From Jaapia argillacea MUCL 33604 (taxonomy: Eukaryota; Basidiomycota; Agaricomycetes; Jaapiales; Jaapiaceae), in contig KL197722.1 of the NCBI GenBank assembly GCA_000697665.1, forward strand, positions 210,844 through 274,843: 64,000 nucleotides of DNA, read 5' to 3'. Position 1 is the stretch's first letter. Each line of letters starts with the position of its first letter. A program made the position numbers and the translations under genes. Positions 37,964 to 58,300 of this stretch are shown piece after piece. Under the pieces are notes generated by a model, which saw only the letters and a program-made list of their open reading frames with translations, was not told where the DNA came from and ran no database searches.

Positions 37964-39111
37964 TCAACAAGTCGCATTGGAGCGAGATTGGGCCGGAACC
38001 GGGCCGGAAAGAGCGGGTGCGGATTTAGAGAGCGATAAAGAGGGAGAGGACAAAATCCTGCGGAGCCTCGAAACGGAGTCGACGTCGGTGGTTGCTTGCG
38101 TCGGCGTGGAAGTAGAAGGGGCAGGAACCGAAGAACTCAGTGGACGTGGAGGGCTAGAGGAGGACCGCTGCGTCGTCGATGTGGATTGGATAGGAGTTGT
38201 AGAATCCATCCCGGGCGAGGGACTCGTGTGGTGTCTCCTGGGCGATGGAGGGGCTCCCGGAGTTGCCTAGGGGCACAAAGGTGGTGAGACAAGAGGTCAA
38301 AATTCGTAATCGTATCCCAGAGGCTTACCCTCAGCTCCTTCCTAAATGCCGTATTGACCTTGTTCGACCAACTGTCCAATTTTCCCTTTGCCTTAGCATC
38401 CCCGAATGTCCTCATCAAGCAAGCACCGTGAACATGCCCCTGAACTCTCCCAAACTTTTTCGCGTCCCACTTTTTCATATTTTCCTCTCCAGCCACCTCC
38501 TTCCATAACCCGGCCAATTCCTCTTCCAGAACTAATACAAACGTCATCTCATCGTCCTTCGCAAGCTGAACAATATTCTTCCAAATGATCCCCACGAACC
38601 ACCAGCAGTTGACGGTCCACATATTGTAGATGCCAGCAATTTTACTGATGACATCCAGGAGAATAACGAGTTTGAGGAGAGGGATGTCATTACGAAGAAA
38701 GCCGACAGAAGCGACAGATTGTGATGGATGAGGCCCTGTTTTCAAAAGAGAGCCCCATCCGAACGCTTCTGCAAAAGTCACCTTGTCCTTGCACCGCGAC
38801 TTTGCGTGCGGTCGATATAAGGTAAACCAGGTTGCCGCATCTCGTTCGATACGAAGGTAGGTGGGCTGCTCTAATTGGGGGCCCGCGATGGATACGATCA
38901 AGAATTCGTGTGATGGTAGGCCAGGTTCTTTCATCCACATCAGATCAGAGATATACATGAGGTCAACGTTGTCGGCCTTGGCAGCGTCGGACTTGGCCCA
39001 CTCGATGAACTTCGAAAGTCTATTGGCCTTGGTATGAAGCCCGTATTGTTGGGCGGAAGGAAGTTCCGGGATTGTGGATACAGAAACGACATCGGGGGTT
39101 GGGGTAGTCAT
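37964..39111 (-). CDS. Uncharacterised protein with an H...NCWWFVG domain
   Basis: Two exons (39111-38329 and 38266-37964, intron GTAAGC...CCCTAG, 62 nt) encode 361 residues. Residues about 25-240 form a compact domain: RLSKFIEWAKSD, then PGLPSHEFLIVSIAGP (His68), TYLRIERD, then IYNMWTVNCWWFVGIIWKN (Cys169), and KKFGRVQGHVHGACLM. The last 110 residues are Ser/Pro/Thr-rich and disordered. The domain recurs in the N-terminal half of the 52426-54516 protein. The family is not one I can name. His to Asn-Cys spacing of about 100 and the 'HEFLIV' beta-strand context recall LRAT/NlpC-P60-like circularly permuted papain folds (inference). No signal peptide or membrane segment is seen. Confidence 0.75.
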
Positions 39112-39560
39112 GTCTCACGGAATCCTGTGACGTAGATATTAGTCAATCCTTCGAACTCGAGTAGCTGACACGTACAAAATGCTCTCTCTTCGGTGGCTAG
39201 AAGGAGGCGAATCCCTTGGTTCAATGAAGGCGCGGAAGGATAGAAACTAGTCAGCTCTTCCGTCATCGGCACAGCTATTCAAGTAAAAACTAGGGTGGAA
39301 CGTGGTAGATGCAAGGCAGCAAACATAATAGAGGGCCAAGGGCATTGCGGTTACGCGGGAAGAAGAGCGCCCAAAGAATAACAGTTCTGACGCCGGATCG
39401 AAGGAACCACCGTAAACCACCATAAACCACAGGCTGACCAGTGCTTTAGCGCTGACAACCAGCCGGAGGCAAGATATGAAGAAACCACGTGATTTCGTGA
39501 CGATTTAATTTAGCACCAAATCGACGACACCAGGAGCAAGTATACGTCTATCATGCACAC

Positions 39561-49669: not shown

Positions 49670-51866
49670 CTACTCCTCTCCACGATCCCACTCCCACCCC
49701 TCTTTCGCCCACTCAGGCATCTCAGTCTCGAACGTCCCGAGACTGGTAGTATATCTCAACGCATGCAAGAATATATACAACTTCTCAGGTTTCGGATCTG
49801 GGTGCAGTGGAAGGTAACACTCCGGGCAGTATAGGACGTCTTCGGTGTGAGTATGAGGCGTGGGCGTGGTTGAACGGGGTGTAGGAGGATCGATGATGGT
49901 TAACTTCGCGAGAGCCTCGGACGTAGTGAGCTGTTTAGAATCAACGTCCTCCTCCAGTTGGGCGGTCTCGGTCAATTCCACGTCCGCGACTTGGACTGCG
50001 TAGTTTTGAGCCGTGCTATTGGTACTGACAGGAGTGTCGGCATCTGGAGCGGGCGGAGGGACATGAACTTTCGACTTTAAAGGTCCCCCACGTTCCCTAC
50101 GATGGGGAGGTGCCAGTGGTCGATGTGTTATCCCAGTCGGTGTGAGTCTCCCTTTTGCACGGAAGACTACGTCACGCCAACGACTCCAGTCCTCATCTTC
50201 ATCCTACCAAACACGAATTAGAAAGTTTCATCCCATAATCGCCCTTGTAATCAGGACAAGACACCAACCTTCATGTTTCGCAACCTCGTTATGATCCCCA
50301 CAGCTTCAGCACTCAAAGGAACAGGCGATCCCATCCCAATATCATGCCCCGTTTCCCTCGGTAACAATTTCCTGAATGGAGTGGACGTTCCACTGGTATC
50401 ATCTTGGATGTCAGGTAAACCTGGCGATGGCGCTGGCGATTCTGGGTTAGAATCCAACTGAAGTCTTGCTCGTGCTTCAGATGGAGGTATTGGGGCGAGT
50501 CGAGAATCTGATGGAGTGAGGTCAATGCCACCTTTGCCTAGCTTGTCACCCTGTAGGTCGGCGATTAGAAAAGGGAAATACTAAAGGACGGAGGACACGA
50601 ACCCAGATTCGGGTCTCAGAGTAAATGGGATCATTGGCGATTGGATATCCTAGGTACTGTAGGTGCACTCTGATCTGATGCGCTGGAAAACACCGGTTCA
50701 GTGGGATAGTTCTCGGATGTATCAAGGTGAACTTACAACGACCTGTCAACGGCCGACCTATGGAAACGAAATGATAGATCAAAATATGGTAACGAAGAGG
50801 AATAGCTGTGCACACACAGTGGAGGACACTAGAGTCTGTATTTTCGTCGTAGTGTAGTCGCTTGAAAATTGTCTTGGCGTTCTATCATACGCACACTTTA
50901 GCAATTAGGCGAGGGGGATATGCAGAGGATGATGATCTCACTTTCCCTTCAGGATGGATGATATTCAAGCCAATTTGTCGGTCTACAGTCAACATCGGCT
51001 GGTCGCAAACGATCTCCTCTCTAAGTATAATTGAGCATATACGTGGGGAAGGTCGATCTCGTGGACTTACTCGGGAAATTTCCCTTTGCATCTTGCGATA
51101 TACTCCTTGCGAACGGTGCCTGCCAGGAACTCGTCGGAAAGGACTCTGGCACATTTTGTGGAGATGGCCATGACCATTAGACCAGAAGTCAATCTATCCA
51201 ACCGATTGACCGCTACGAGAGAATTCAGCGATCGGCATTCTCGGAGCGAAAACCAACTTACGATAGACCTTGTCGTAGTCAAACTCATCTTGTAAGATCT
51301 CGACAAGGCTGTTCTTGAAATAGCGCCCTGTGGCATGAACCGGCTAGCAGCACCCAAAGAAAACTCAGGTTTAGAAAAGAACGAGATGTGGATCAGACGA
51401 ACGAACGATAGATCCAGGTTTATCGATAACAATGAATTCACGACCGGCATCGTGATGCAAAACGCGAACAGGTGTTGAAGTTACAGGAGGTTCATGACGA
51501 TGCACGACGTTCCTGCGTAAGACTCAGGTGACGGAAATGGGATCCAAGGGCAAAACTAACATACTCGATCCTGTCTCCATTCAAGATGATGGTATCAGGT
51601 TGGGCAACCTTCCCATTGATGGTAGTTACACCTGATTCCAGCGCATATCTCTGCGGCTTGTTTCAAATGGGTTCGTCGGTGGAGAAGGATGGAGAACGCA
51701 CATAATATTCCATAGACCGATCTCTAAACTCTGTTGACACAACTTCTAAGATCTCACGATTGAGCCATCGACCCTTGGCCATCGTAATGTACGGGTACCA
51801 GTAGGGTGTAATCTTCTTCAAACCATTCACAGTTATCTTGGTGAGTGGTGGGGGGGAGTCGGACAT
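49670..51866 (-). CDS. tRNA pseudouridine synthase, RluA type (PUS8/PUS9/RIB2-like)
   Basis: Minus-strand exons from ATG 51866: 51866-51702 ([40 protein letters not shown]), 51650-51565, 51512-51407 ([17 protein letters not shown]), 51343-51262 ([17 protein letters not shown]) and 51212-51071. The last of these has the catalytic motif [12 protein letters not shown], whose Asp attacks uridine. Exon 51020-50942 follows, then [20 protein letters not shown], a disordered linker, and the C-terminal [30 protein letters not shown]. These are the marks of the fungal tRNA Psi32 synthases (yeast Pus8/Rib2 and Pus9). No deaminase domain is visible, so it looks Pus9-like, or the fused deaminase was lost. 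Non-ATG frame upstream of 51866 could encode a mitochondrial presequence. One splice near 50760-50830 is unresolved. Confidence 0.85.
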
Positions 51867-52425
51867 GGCAGTAGACAGGAATCGGGCCAAGACGTGGCGA
51901 AACTGGGCGTGGGCGGGTAAAGGGATGAGAGGCAAGTGCCGTCTTGTCGGACGCTGCGAATGGGCCAGGGCGACTCGCAGAATGGTGAACAACTTTGGCA
52001 GTCACGTCAACGGTCAAAGGAGGGTTCATGAAAAGATGTTGGTGCCAGTTATAGTATAAGTGATCACGTGGTAATACTGTAGTGAGTTGGTAATTATAGT
52101 AAATAAATATCCAACCCCACCTCAACCTCACGCACAGTAATCCCAAGTTAATTAGCTATTACAAGTACTAGTACCGCCTGTGGCCCTATGCTGCAAACAA
52201 CGCCCCAGACACCGACAGCTCCTTTCCCTTGTACAGTCGAGGTACTTGCAAAAGCTACTACTTATTAGAAGTTGAGAGTCCGTGAGGTTGAGGTGTCCAG
52301 CCTCCGATCGTGTGCTCATTCCGCCCTCTACATGCCTTGTAGGCTGACATACCTATCCAGCCAAAAGACTATACAATGCGAAGATCCAAATGACAAAGAC
52401 ATGAAAAACCTTATAGACCCAGCGT
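51867..52425. other. Intergenic region
   Basis: Contains the 5' flank of the pseudouridine synthase gene and the 3' flank of the next minus-strand gene. No gene seen. Confidence 0.4.
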
Positions 52426-54516
52426 TCAAATAACAGGCTCCAAAAAACTCGCCAATGCCCACCCAATCTGCCCGCCATTGTCTCTCACGACCAGCAAGCA
52501 ATCATCTCCATCATCCACATAGAGGGGCAAATTTCTATGAGATAAAGGATGTCCCTCTTCGGAGAGAACATCCAATTTCTGGCCGAGAGAGAGATCGAAG
52601 AAGGGCAAAGAATCGTAGAAAATACCAGCCGGGGGTTGGCATGGGTGGACGACTTGACATGTATAGAGCACTCGATTAAGCGCACGCCGCGATTTCTGAA
52701 GTTCAGGATCTCCATTGGGTGTTGTCGGGAGGGAAGGAGTTGACGAATGACTCGGAGACAGGATTACAGGAGGTGGTCTCATTGCTGGCATAGCAAAATG
52801 GCGATCAAGGCGGGATGGAGATGTGAATGAAGGTGTCCGATCTCTCAACGGAAGAGGGTGTGGCGACGGCGAGGGTGGCCTAAGCGCCAAGCTGGAACCA
52901 GATGGATCGGATGGCTTCGTCGTATGACTCGTGGTAGTGGTCCGACTCCATTGGGCATCTAGCTCAGCGAAAGGAGACATAGCCTCAGTCACAATCCTCT
53001 TCGTCTCCATGTGAACTCCCTTCCGACGTTTCACAATCCCCAAGCTTGCAGTGATTTCATCAACTTGCACCCATCGATTCCACCACCTGGCAACAGTCTC
53101 AACCGAGTCCATTCGCTCTACGCCCCCAGGCCCAACCAACAGGCGCTCCCCTTCGATCCTAAGGGAATCCCAAAGATCTCGCCAGCTCCCGACGACACGT
53201 TTCCAAAAACCTCTCTGCAATTTTATGAAATCACACCAGACGTATCTGACCCCTTTCTCCAATAATGCGATGTATTGAGGCAACTCTGCTACCAGCTGGC
53301 TCCGGAGTGTGATGTATGAGGTAGTCGATGGTAACGGTGCGAAAGACGGGAGGTATTTGCGGTTGACAGTGGCGTAGTGAGTTGATTTCGAAGACTGGAG
53401 GGAATTCAATAGTCCCAGAGGAGATGTCGCGCTCTCAGAAAGTCGAGCAAGCTGCAGAAACAGCCTCTTTTGCACATCAGTCTCCATGGCCTGACAGAAT
53501 GACAACAACTCATCCCGAACAACTTCCAAGTAGGCATCGAATGCCTCGCTTATAACTTCAGATTGACCATCCACACCACACACGCCAACCAACTTCCCGA
53601 AACAAATTGACCACGCCAACAGCCGCTCATAAAGCGTCCTGACCGTCACTGCCAAGTCCCGAATACGTTCCTCCAAAGTGCGGATGAGTGCTTCTGTGCG
53701 TAGGAGGGTTTTTTCAAGAGAAGCGATGAAGGAGTCCTCGTCGATGGCATTCCTCAGTGTGAGTGGCCCAGACAAGCATTTGGCGTATGCGTTGTCTACT
53801 AAAGCTGACGACCGTTCCACCTCCCCCTTCGCTCCAATAGATCCACGGATTCGACCGAGTAAACTGAGGTGTTGAAATTGTTGAAAATCTGCGAAATTCC
53901 CTGCGTTCCAGGTGTGGCCCCCACGAGACTGGTTCATCGGCCATGCTTCTTCCTTCCCTTCCGCCACGAAATAGAATTTCATGGAGTCGGAATTGACACA
54001 GCGAACGAGATTCCTCCACAGGCATCCCACGAACCACCAACAATTGGTGGTCCAGATATTGTACGCGGTTACTCTGTCGGTGATGACTCGTAATAGAAGG
54101 GTGATATGCAGGACGCCGATGTCCTGGTTTTGAATGGTGACACGGGCGACGGTCTCGTCACGAGCGCCGAGGGTATCGCCGACTTTGTTGGCTATGATGA
54201 CGGTATCCCTGGTAACAGTAGAATGTTTCGGGCCTATCAGAGATTTCCACGACTTCGTGTCTCGTTCGAGTCGAAGGCTAAGGTCGAATACACCTGAGAA
54301 GGTAACCACCAAGTACTCGTGAGAGGGTGTTCCAGGTTGTTTAACCCAGTGGATGCTGGAGATCCGTAGATCATCTACACTGTCTGACGAAGCCTCGGAT
54401 GAGGTTGACCAGCGAATGAAGGTTTCAATGTCAACTTGACGAGGGAGTTTGTGTTGCCGTATAGAAGGAAGAAGGAAAACATCGACAGCTGTTGGCAAGC
54501 GCGCGGAGGACTCCAT
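52426..54516 (-). CDS. Fusion protein: H...NCWWFVG domain + BAR-like + SH3
   Basis: An intronless frame of 696 residues from ATG 54516 (MESSARLPTAVDVF). ATG 54687 would add 57 residues with a hydrophobic stretch that homology does not support. Residues about 20-235 match the 37964-39111 protein: FIRWSTSSE, PGTPSHEYLVVTFSG (His66), LRLERD, YNIWTTNCWWFVGCLWRNL (Cys159). Residues about 243-500 are a helical BAR-like region parallel to that of the 55365-59172 GEF (LLAWSICFGKLVGVCGVDG, SEAFDAYLEVVRDELL, FWKRVVGSWRDLWDSL). A Ser/Pro linker and a C-terminal SH3-like domain (residues about 622-696: LPLYVDDGDDCLLVV, GQIGWALASFLEP) follow. No DH domain remains. It should bind curved membranes and proline-rich partners. 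The role of the N-terminal domain is unknown. Confidence 0.8.
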   Translation of the reverse strand: MESSARLPTAVDVFLLPSIRQHKLPRQVDIETFIRWSTSSEASSDSVDDLRISSIHWVKQPGTPSHEYLVVTFSGVFDLSLRLERDTKSWKSLIGPKHSTVTRDTVIIANKVGDTLGARDETVARVTIQNQDIGVLHITLLLRVITDRVTAYNIWTTNCWWFVGCLWRNLVRCVNSDSMKFYFVAEGKEEAWPMNQSRGGHTWNAGNFADFQQFQHLSLLGRIRGSIGAKGEVERSSALVDNAYAKCLSGPLTLRNAIDEDSFIASLEKTLLRTEALIRTLEERIRDLAVTVRTLYERLLAWSICFGKLVGVCGVDGQSEVISEAFDAYLEVVRDELLSFCQAMETDVQKRLFLQLARLSESATSPLGLLNSLQSSKSTHYATVNRKYLPSFAPLPSTTSYITLRSQLVAELPQYIALLEKGVRYVWCDFIKLQRGFWKRVVGSWRDLWDSLRIEGERLLVGPGGVERMDSVETVARWWNRWVQVDEITASLGIVKRRKGVHMETKRIVTEAMSPFAELDAQWSRTTTTSHTTKPSDPSGSSLALRPPSPSPHPLPLRDRTPSFTSPSRLDRHFAMPAMRPPPVILSPSHSSTPSLPTTPNGDPELQKSRRALNRVLYTCQVVHPCQPPAGIFYDSLPFFDLSLGQKLDVLSEEGHPLSHRNLPLYVDDGDDCLLVVRDNGGQIGWALASFLEPVI

Positions 54517-55364
54517 GGAGGCGGTAGCTATCTGGAACATTGTCAGAGCAAGAAAGGAGAGAAAATAGAGACCACAATCGCTCACAGAGAGGACTGCCAG
54601 ACTCCAGAGGTTAGTGTCTAGGTCGTGAAGGACGTAGGAGCACGATTGCAGTGCACGCTGTGCAATGGGATTAGATTCCCTTCCCAAGCTTAAGCTCGAC
54701 GGTATGAAGGCGTGAAGGCATGAGGCGACACCCTGGAATAGACCATGCCTTAAAAGTTAACGATCTAATGATAAGATGGATACGTCGAGTTGAAGGGAAT
54801 GTCGGCCATCTTGGCGCCTGCTGGGCTTCTGGCAGTCAAGGCAGTGGTCGAGGGTCCTACGGTAACGCAAGTGAATCAGTACACTTGACTTACTACCTGC
54901 GTCCCCGTCGAGTCCTTCCAAAGGAGCGAAGCCGACTAAAGAGGATTAAAGCGAGGCCCCGAAAATCGGAATACAGAGATGCACTTACCAGGGATCGCGT
55001 AGCAAAGTAACAAACATGCATTTCCATGGCCATGCGTGGCACGCTTGCGAATTGTGGGCTGGGGATCCGAGCAGAGCCAGAGGTCGTGTTTAAAGATGCG
55101 AACATCCTCCAGTTACGTAGTGACTCTTTTGATCAAGGTATTTCAACAGCGTACTTCGCAGCATCCAGATATCCTCTAAGTACATCTATAAAATTACAAC
55201 GAGCACAGATATAGCACAACCAAACCGAGAACTAAATCCAAAGAATACATGGTATGATCCAAACAGATCCACAAAACAGATCACACACACAAATTAAAAA
55301 AGAAAAAGTCAATGGCAAACCGAAAGGCAAAAGTGAACTAACGACCCAAGGGTCCGTTGAACGT
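54517..55364. other. Intergenic region between the two paralogues
   Basis: About 850 bp without a supported gene. It must hold the promoter of the fusion gene and the terminator of the GEF gene. Confidence 0.4.
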
Positions 55365-58300
55365 TCAATCAACAGGCATCAAAAAACTAGCCAACGCCCA
55401 CCCAATCTGTCCATTATGATCTCTCACCAACAACAAACAATCCTCTCCATCATCCACATACAACGGTAAATCCTGATGACTAGACGGGTGTCCAGCTTCG
55501 GTCAACACATCAAACTTCGCCCCCGGTCTCAGCGGGAAAAACGGCAAAGAATGATACGAAACGTTCGAAGGAGGTTCACAAGGATGAACCACTCTACAAG
55601 CATAGAGCGCTCTACCAAGTGACCTACGTGGTCGGATAGGTTCCAAATCCCTCGTAGGCGTTCTCCGTGGCGAGGGAGTAGAGGAAGGAGTTGAAGAATG
55701 TGATTGAGCGAATGCAGCTGAAGGAGCGGAACGTAAACCATTGTGACGTGATGAAGCATGCGAAGGTGTGGGTTCCTTCAACGTCGCAAATGATGAACTC
55801 CTCGACGAGACCGGCGGTGGTTGGTGTGACTTTGATATCGATACGGGTGGTGGCGAAGGCGAACGTGGTCGGATTGTCGACGAACTAGATGACTCGGAGG
55901 CCTTCATCGTACTAGCCGTCCACCTCCTCTTGAAACTCGGCTTCCTCGAAGGCGTAGCCGCCCCCTTGCCATCACCACCACCCCTATCGTCGTCATACTG
56001 CGGTGGCGTCTGAGGCGCGCTCAGAGTCACAGTACTCCCATTACTAACCGAACCCTTCCTCCTCCCATGCCCGTTCACCCTCCCACTAGAAGCGGGTACA
56101 GGCACCGACGCATTCCTAGTTGGAGTAGGAGGAGGAGGGTGTAACGAAGCCATGATATCCCCAACCTCATCCGCCAAAGTATAAGGAGGATATTGCAATC
56201 CAGCACTAGACCCACTCCTCCTCGACCTCCCACTCTTCCCACTCTTAGCCGACTTGCCGGATTGTAGACTCTCCATACTCCTCCTCTTCTCAACCTGCAT
56301 CGCCCTCCCACTCCCACCATCCCAATTCCCACTACCCCCAGGCGTCCTAGGTCTCCTCCTCCTCTCCTCTTTCATTTGAGTAGGTGGGTGGGGTTGCGAA
56401 GCTCCAGCCATAACAGCATAATAAGCATGCGCATAAGCCCTATCGATCCCATCACCCATCACCTCCCCAACCTCCCTCAAATCCTCCTCATCAGAAAAAC
56501 TCGCCCTATAAGCCGAAGGCGTCGGAGTAGGCGGGTGCGAGAGCGACAAGGGCGTAGGGTCCAAAGAAGCCAAGACGTTCGCAACGCTCCCATTCGCTCT
56601 CAACTTTTCCTTCTCCCTCTCTCTCATCGCCGACCTCCCATCTCTATCCCTATCCCTCTCGCGATCTTTCTCTTTATCCCTCTCCCTAGGTAAAGGCGTC
56701 ACAATCTCCAACCCATCCACCTCCGCACCAACCTCCCTCCACCGATCCCACCACCTCCTAATAGTCTCCTCCGCACCCCCAGCAACTTCACCCGGCGCAC
56801 CGCCCGGCCCAGGCCCACCATCCAACTCCTCTCCATCCATCTTCAACGCATCCCAAAGCTCTCCCCACCTCCCTCTCACCCCCTCCCAAAAACCACCTTG
56901 CCAACTCCCAAAAACCCTAACAACCCCTTTAACACCCCTCTCCAAACTCTCGAGATAAACCGGTAGTTCAACTGCTAGTTGACCACGGAGTGCGACGTAT
57001 GATTGGGATGCTTCTAGTAGAGCTGGAGGAGGTCGGGAGGAAGGTGTGAATGAATGATGGAGGAGTGTTGAATGGAGTGGTTCGAGTGTATGCATAGCTT
57101 CCAATAACCGATACGGAGCCTTCATGCTCGAGACTAACCGAGAAAGAGCGATCAACAACCTCTTCTCAATAGCCGCTTCCAACTCATCACAAAGCACCAA
57201 AACACTCCTCCTTATAACACTCAAAAACGCATCAAAAGCTTCACTAGCACTCTCCCCTTCACCTTCGAACCCATCAGGCCCAACAACACCAATAACCTTC
57301 CCAAACCCAACAGACCAAACCAAAAGCTGGAAATGTAAAGCTTTGACGCTCGCTCCCCATTCTTTAGCTTGTTTGGCAAAAGTGTGGATGAAGATATCGG
57401 TTTCTCTCAGCCTCTTCTCTAACCGCGCGACCAACGCAGCTTCTTCATGAGCTTCTTCGTTACTCGGTAACCCAAGCGAAGAAACCTTCTTCGTAAAACT
57501 CTTCATCCTCCCCAATCTCACACTAGCAGCCACACCCAACCCACCACTACCCCCACCGCCACTAGTCCTCTTCTCCCCTTTCCTCTTCCCATCTTTCCCA
57601 CCTCCCTCCTTCCCACCATTCAAAACATCCCTAACGACTTCCCACCTCCTCCTCCCCTCATTAACACCTCTCGCAACCTCCTCCATCCTCCCCCTAGCCT
57701 CTTTTAACCGCGCCTTATCTCCATGGTCTAATGGTGTTTCCTCGAAAATGGTGGAGAGGAGGAGAGGGTATTTGAGGAGACGTTGGACGGGTTTGATTAG
57801 GAGGGAAGGGAGGTCCCAGGAGTGGGTTAGGGCGGAGGTTAGTTGGACGGTTTTTTCGAGGTAGGTTTGGAGGGAGGGAGATGGAGGGGAGGTTAGGGAG
57901 GTTAGGTGGGAGAGGGCTGTTGGATGACGGGTTATGTATGTCTTGTATGGGGGTTCGAGTTTGGGGATCTGGGGGGGACGTCGATGGCAGGTTTGGTTAG
58001 TGGGCGTGATGGATTAGGGAAGAGAGCGATGAACGTACGATTTCTAGGAATAGCAACCCAACATGATCCTCCCCTGTACCTCCTTCAATAACATCTCCGA
58101 GCGCCTCCTGTAACAAATCACAAAAAGCGTCGGAGAACTCTGCTAGTTCAGCGATGTTGCCAAAGATGATTTTCGCGTCCTCTTTTGTCATGGGTGAGGG
58201 GTGAGAGACTAGCGTCGCGGAACTTGCGGAACCGGATGAAGAGGTTGAGAGTGTGCGCGTTGAGGATGAGGACGATGAGGACGATGAGGAGGGTGGGGAG

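Follow-up and report, generated by a model that had tools for sequence, protein, structure and literature searches.

Rho GEFs of the DH-BAR(-SH3) type include Tuba/DNMBP, fungal MsgA and Fus2. For MsgA of Talaromyces marneffei, a DH-BAR protein, it has been reported that a DH-less allele completely complemented the deletion and was normally localised, unlike a BAR-less one, and that the BAR domain, not DH, carried localisation and function during infection; the same report gives MsgA orthologues as absent from the basidiomycetes examined in it (PMC7840665). Among thiol enzymes, strand 2 of PLAAT proteins is described as carrying the His and strand 3 the third residue, the Cys being part of the sequence NCEHFV (PMC10102619), and the account of BcPPNE gives His49, Glu64 and Cys154 together with an active-site Tyr127, the His and the polar residue preceding the Cys (PMC3142127). 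Forced recruitment of PLAAT3 to mitochondria is reported to deform them, for which the catalytic Cys113 was needed and a transmembrane segment was also required (PMC9338259).

The window analysed here, a stretch of 64 000 nucleotides from contig KL197722.1 of the basidiomycete Jaapia argillacea MUCL 33604, contains a gene that joins an unrelated module to the BAR-SH3 part of such a GEF. Its parts, with the evidence for each, are as follows:

52426–54516, minus strand: fusion gene (module, BAR-like region, linker, SH3-like end), a single 696-codon frame
53770–54516, minus strand: NCWWFVG module, residues 1–249 (∼250 residues), a candidate circularly permuted papain-like (LRAT/PPPDE-like) domain (homology to an expanded family, conservation, motif test, low-confidence secondary structure)
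53017–53745, minus strand: BAR-like helical region, approximately residues 258–500 (homology to the neighbouring GEF, long model helices, a BAR-rich but non-significant Foldseek list)
52669–53016, minus strand: linker, residues 501–616, rich in Ser/Pro over most of its length, its beginning predicted to be helical (sequence and model)
52429–52668, minus strand: SH3-like C-terminus, residues 617–696 (identity to the neighbouring GEF, model strands)

The minus-strand interval 52426–54756 is open from stop to stop for 776 codons and encodes 696 aa from the ATG at 54516, with a second in-frame ATG at 54540. Scanning the coding stretch for fungal-type introns (GTRNGY, CTRAY branch, YAG) yielded none; around the junction of module and BAR-like region the other two frames carry stops, and third-position G+C differs little between the halves (0.56 and 0.52). 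A Pfam search of the fusion protein returned no families, RhoGEF included, and the 15 own-genome matches to PF00621 do not include C14:263272–265359, where this gene lies. No transmembrane segment was seen in the protein by eye. The original prediction of an NCWWFVG module and BAR-SH3 in one GEF-less frame is thus borne out by 696 uninterrupted codons, by the lack of any Pfam family in the product and by the presence of PF00621 in the neighbour. The fusion is genuine in the assembly, and 52426–54516 is very probably one gene, made up of module and BAR-SH3.

Upstream of the fusion gene and on the same strand lies the neighbouring GEF, in which the RhoGEF domain (PF00621) was recognised by Pfam with an E-value of 2.7e-17:

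55365–58013, minus strand: last exon (stop to stop) of the neighbouring DH-BAR-SH3 GEF, comprising the end of DH, a BAR-like region, a long linker and an SH3-like end, with PF00621 at residues 17–118

By inspection, earlier exons of this gene extend to ∼59172. When the fusion protein was searched against its own genome, residues 255–553 matched this last exon at 1.7e-50 (37 % identity) and residues 529–695 at 5.0e-41 (58 %), and the neighbour was the only BAR-SH3 match among the 67 own-genome matches listed; as the search scores the best candidates only, its counts are lower bounds. The predicted homology of both parts to the adjacent GEF is confirmed by these matches, and the two motifs that had been quoted for the SH3 ends, LPLYVDDG[DE]DCLL and GQIGWALASFL, are both present in both proteins.

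In pairwise alignment, the BAR-like parts share 98 of 243 residues (40 %) and the SH3-like ends 56 of 80 (70 %). Codon positions 1 and 2 are identical at 61 % of sites in the BAR-like part and 78 % in the SH3-like end, third positions at 41 and 51 %, respectively, and fourfold-degenerate sites at 18 of 43 (42 %) and 9 of 23 (39 %), values that are near saturation. As third positions and fourfold sites are almost saturated, the BAR-SH3 duplication must be old, and the excess of identity at positions 1 and 2 points to selection on the fusion protein rather than decay. We also considered that the SH3 end might have been duplicated or converted recently and rejected this, as fourfold sites are as diverged there as in the BAR-like part. 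At this age two histories are indistinguishable: duplication followed by replacement of DH, and acquisition of an incomplete duplicate by a module gene.

The names given to the two shared parts deserve comment. A Pfam search matched neither the BAR-like nor the SH3-like part to a family, and a PDB profile search with the pair gave three matches, none of them BAR or SH3. A full-length AF2 model built from three sequences has a mean pLDDT of only 42; it places helices at residues 251–313, 319–364 and 401–460 and, with the same low confidence, strands at the C-terminal end, where pLDDT blocks over residues 631–696 range from 45 to 72. Foldseek searches with this model returned BAR or F-BAR in 19 titles among the best 50 of 281 matches, all with E > 0.02 and none significant. 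The SH3 label is one that we assume from the end motifs, beside the 70 % identity to the neighbour. On this evidence the BAR-like region might bind curved membrane, and the SH3-like end might have binding partners.

The module belongs to an expanded family. The own-genome search with the fusion listed 67 matching pieces, again a lower bound, and a 24-member profile, applied in six frames and without gene models to the window and the loci retrieved from the genome, resolved 44 near-complete modules in the 43.7-Mb genome, plus 16 loci with modules that are split by introns or stops, or are partial. In half of the near-complete copies (22 of 44) at least 60 residues follow the module in the same frame, and by eye these C-termini include coiled coils, an acidic tail, Pro/Ser-rich tails and, in copy L054, a long helical region; Pfam scans of two of them (L046 and L054) gave no significant family. 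A BAR-SH3 C-terminus occurs in the fusion only, among the 44 near-complete copies. In a tree of the 44 modules the fusion module forms a long branch (0.91) of unsettled placement, the deepest forks being weak. Single scans with profile A1 of a prokaryote and a viral contig collection gave 55 and 94 pattern stretches, respectively, and no confirmed relative. Judged by titles and the beginnings of abstracts, our literature searches found no description of the module family or of the module plus BAR-SH3 architecture, nor any paper pairing 'LRAT domain' with 'BAR domain', and the papers with 'NCWW' strings among the matches listed look unrelated by title.

One further family member lies within the window:

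38323–39111, minus strand: second module gene of the window, without BAR-SH3 (family profile; tree sister of L012)

The original prediction had the N-terminal half of the fusion homologous to a gene at 37964–39111. That homology holds (2.5e-37, 37 % identity) and, like that of the BAR-SH3 part to the GEF, far exceeds chance similarity, but the gene is one of at least 60 copies, is not a close one, and the interval is not one frame, 38137–39114 being open and 37964–38266 open in another frame. An intron near 38280–38330 is likely, the gene end being uncertain, and the 63 residues that follow the module in frame probably run into an intron. The further suggestion that the module was derived from this gene 13 kb away was rejected: with self excluded, the gene ranks 20th by bits among the module matches listed, and in the tree of the 44 modules it pairs with L012, a copy on another contig, at 100/100.

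Alignment of the 44 modules revealed a small set of nearly invariant residues, four of which could form an active site:

54319–54321, minus strand: codon for His66 within PSHEYL, a putative catalytic residue with which predicted strand 2 (66–75) begins, present in 44 of 44 modules
54265–54267, minus strand: codon for Glu84 within RLERD, a putative third member of the catalytic set, predicted to lie on strand 3 (Glu in 42 of 44 modules, Gln or Asp in the others)
54061–54063, minus strand: codon of Tyr152, seven residues ahead of the Cys, in 41 of 44
54040–54042, minus strand: codon for Cys159 within NCWWF, a putative nucleophile lying close to where predicted helix 157–173 begins, in 42 of 44

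Cys159 is the single Cys conserved at ≥ 90 % across the 44 modules. Asn158 is found in 43 of them, Arg82, Arg85, Trp57, Trp160 and Trp161 in every one, and Trp167 in 43; at each of the 24 conserved columns listed, the fusion module carries the residue most common in the family. The conserved His stands before the conserved Cys, and a polar residue follows the His, as is characteristic of the permuted NlpC/P60 superfamily. Furthermore, the spacing Tyr(-7)-Asn(-1)-Cys(0) is that of bacterial LRAT proteins, of C97-like proteins and of PLAAT2 (YSLTSDNCEHF); shuffling alignment columns reproduced it in 16 of 200 000 trials, three of them with Phe, Tyr or Leu at +3, a count made after the fact as the motif had been noticed before the shuffle test. 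The only two modules without the conserved Cys, L052 (C24:334917–335567) and L053 (C7:849793–850278), have Tyr152 and Glu84 changed too and are divergent elsewhere as well; judged from their sequences, they are candidate pseudoenzymes, in which such joint changes would be expected, and could serve as a natural control.

Independent support for the fold itself is weak. A low-confidence AF2 model of the module from two sequences (mean pLDDT 41) shows five strands and one helix, and then Cys159 in helix 157–173; His66 begins strand 66–75 and Glu84 lies within strand 79–86. Foldseek with this model gave no papain-like enzyme title in the best 50 of 125 matches, and a PDB profile search with the module gave nothing relevant. 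When 24 members were scanned, there was no Pfam match better than E 0.05 and no NCBIfam match better than 0.069. The only Pfam family found by more than one member was PF05903 (PPPDE), with two members and a best E-value of 0.05. One of these matches covers residues 101–156 of L008, with the Cys at residue 144 (E 0.055; 13.8 bits against a cut-off of 29.2). When 20 of the 24 members were rescanned one at a time, PF05903 came up once, for L008, the second match being among the four members outside the rescan; L010 and L020, close relatives of L008, gave no PF05903 match, and the two matches may not be independent.

Profile comparisons by hhalign against reference families likewise gave no significant match (E 0.037 to 0.65, probabilities of ∼1 % or less). 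The E-value was 0.037 for a C97-like profile, which consists of two proteins that score 23.5 and 23.3 bits, below the 29.2 bits required for PF05903, 0.22 for LRAT, 0.11 for a joint profile and 0.063 for A1 against A6, and shuffled modules scored as well in none of 100 trials for the C97-like profile, 12 of 100 for LRAT and 5 of 100 for the joint profile. For both the LRAT and the C97-like profiles, the best local match aligns the NC boxes in register. The A6 set of LRAT proteins is reliable, as it retrieves PLAAT structures from the PDB (2.2e-14), and a PDB search with a C97-like protein gave myosin matches, the best at E 0.46. Global hhalign alignment of the module produced nothing useful, and the LRAT model PF04970 run over this genome found nothing at E up to 10. 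Kinship with YiiX-type proteins was rejected, as 71 of 100 shuffles were as good, the reversed module scored higher and the active-site residues were not in register. On balance, the module probably has a circularly permuted papain-like fold, as in LRAT/PLAAT and PPPDE enzymes. A gene at G000:C3:661396–661996 (L031–L033, three exon matches) is the only PF05903 gene found in the genome and is distinct from the module family.

Compared with described enzymes, the module shares with the LRAT/PLAAT (HRASLS) thiol phospholipase A/acyltransferases (PF04970) a His on what is predicted as strand 2, a polar residue on predicted strand 3, the Cys in an Asn-Cys-x-x-Phe box and the Tyr at -7, and its His-to-Cys distance of 93 may be set against ∼90 in PLAAT3. 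It differs in having NCWWF rather than NCEHF, Glu rather than His or Asn as third residue, an extra N-terminal segment and ∼90 residues past the Cys, the whole being unrecognised by the LRAT model; its invariant Trp-Trp after the Cys, Arg82, Arg85 and Trp57 are absent from LRAT features. With the PPPDE/DeSI-type peptidases (PF05903, C97) it has in common the proposed permuted papain order and the Asn-Cys box, and these gave its best local hhalign match, to the two sub-threshold relatives; in contrast, the module's own matches to PPPDE are sub-threshold and the genome's over-cut-off PPPDE gene lies elsewhere (C3). The YaeF/YiiX-type permuted NlpC/P60 proteins (BcPPNE; PF05708) have a His-Glu(+15)-Cys triad, and the module's Glu lies 15 to ∼24 residues after its His, depending on the loop, but there is no in-register profile similarity; moreover, Tyr127 of BcPPNE lies 27 residues before its Cys, whereas a Tyr at -7 is a feature of LRAT and C97-like proteins. 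As for the DH-BAR(-SH3) Rho GEFs (Tuba, MsgA), the BAR-SH3 half of the fusion is homologous to that of its DH-bearing neighbour, but the fusion has an unrelated module in place of DH.

We consider it plausible, at just under even chances, that this is an old, constrained, single fusion in which a permuted papain-like thiol enzyme module is carried to curved membrane by BAR-SH3. In such a protein Cys159, placed where the helix following the sheet begins, would be activated by His66 of strand 2. Glu84 of strand 3 would hold His66 in orientation, and Tyr152 would also belong to the active site. The BAR-like and SH3-like parts would place the module on curved plasma or endosomal membrane, the SH3-like end docking the same proline-rich partners as the sister GEF, and the module would there act on an acyl or amide bond, by cleavage or transfer, in either a lipid of the membrane or a protein bound to it, perhaps as a Cys-His phospholipase/acyltransferase on a membrane common to the fusion and the sister GEF. 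The 'unknown activity' originally assigned to the protein can thus be sharpened, from its conserved residues, to that of a hypothetical Cys-His enzyme. Whether the module is catalytic in this way is, from sequence, an evenly balanced question, and a lipid substrate is a more tentative proposal. The recruitment of PLAAT3 to mitochondria, as reported, provides a precedent that makes a membrane effect plausible, although a transmembrane segment was needed there and none was seen in the fusion by eye (PMC9338259).

Other explanations account for part of these observations. Somewhat less probably than the enzyme reading, the module could be non-enzymatic, a small protein-binding or scaffold domain, common in this fungus, with a structural Trp-rich core, and the fusion an adaptor in competition with the GEF over sites on the membrane: Trp57, Trp160, Trp161 and Trp167 match the His and Cys in conservation, the module lacks a significant profile match to any enzyme, and the coiled-coil, acidic and low-complexity tails noted by eye on several paralogues would suit scaffolds. 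A structural role does not, however, readily account for an invariant His, a sole Cys conserved at ≥ 90 %, an acidic residue and a Tyr that are spaced as in LRAT/PPPDE, and the Cys-less L052 and L053 have lost Tyr152 and Glu84 as well, though both are generally divergent. It is improbable that the fusion is a decoy or dominant-negative GEF in which BAR-SH3 retains the localisation of the GEF without nucleotide exchange and the module is a passenger; in this direction point the SH3-like end, which is the best preserved part (70 % identity), and the reported MsgA allele, according to which DH-less BAR proteins can function (PMC7840665), but the module, with the commonest residue at 24 of 24 listed columns despite its long branch, looks constrained. 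Least probable is that two separate genes, or an assembly join, have been read as one. Both halves do occur separately within the window, but the frame runs through the junction without a stop codon or shift and no consensus intron lies there, an assembly error would need to have joined two coding frames in phase, and both halves are diverged from the other genomic copies found, such that neither looks pasted from those.

Should the reading of a membrane-guided thiol enzyme be true, it would provide a catalytic Cys159/His66 hypothesis for a large fungal family in which 24 scanned members had no Pfam match better than E 0.05 and no NCBIfam match better than 0.069, as well as a natural case of a GEF address tag reused to carry an enzyme. 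Two sisters that share BAR-SH3 but differ in their heads would also let one ask directly what BAR-SH3 addresses alone. A broader and rather unlikely version is that this lineage expanded permuted papain-like thiol enzymes to ∼60 copies as plug-in heads on varied carriers, and that here such a head took the place of DH in a Tuba-like GEF, giving a BAR-SH3-guided lipid-modifying enzyme, in effect a curvature-targeted PLAAT.

Several minor observations were made in passing. L054 (G000:C12:129500–133500) has a frame of 777 codons at 285 (plus strand) that comprises the module and ∼470 helical-looking residues, and it ends in several hydrophobic, membrane-like segments; it is a possible membrane-anchored relative of the fusion. 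L059, L062, L064, L065, L066 and L067, on contigs C5, C7 and C28, form a second, divergent subfamily (e.g. YDLTTFNCWWYAGCIWE), in five of which the His and Cys halves are in separate frames or exons, L065 having both in one frame. By eye, the NC box of this subfamily is the closest to LRAT; a Pfam scan of the six stretches found no papain-like family. Members of the family cluster on contigs C4 (∼950–1023 kb), C9 (∼477–495 kb) and C18 (∼256–271 kb) of G000, and some copies within these clusters are split or carry stops, which suggests rapid gene birth and death. Finally, pieces on the minus strand of the window at 50546–52001 look, by a motif, like an RluA-type pseudouridine synthase gene with introns.
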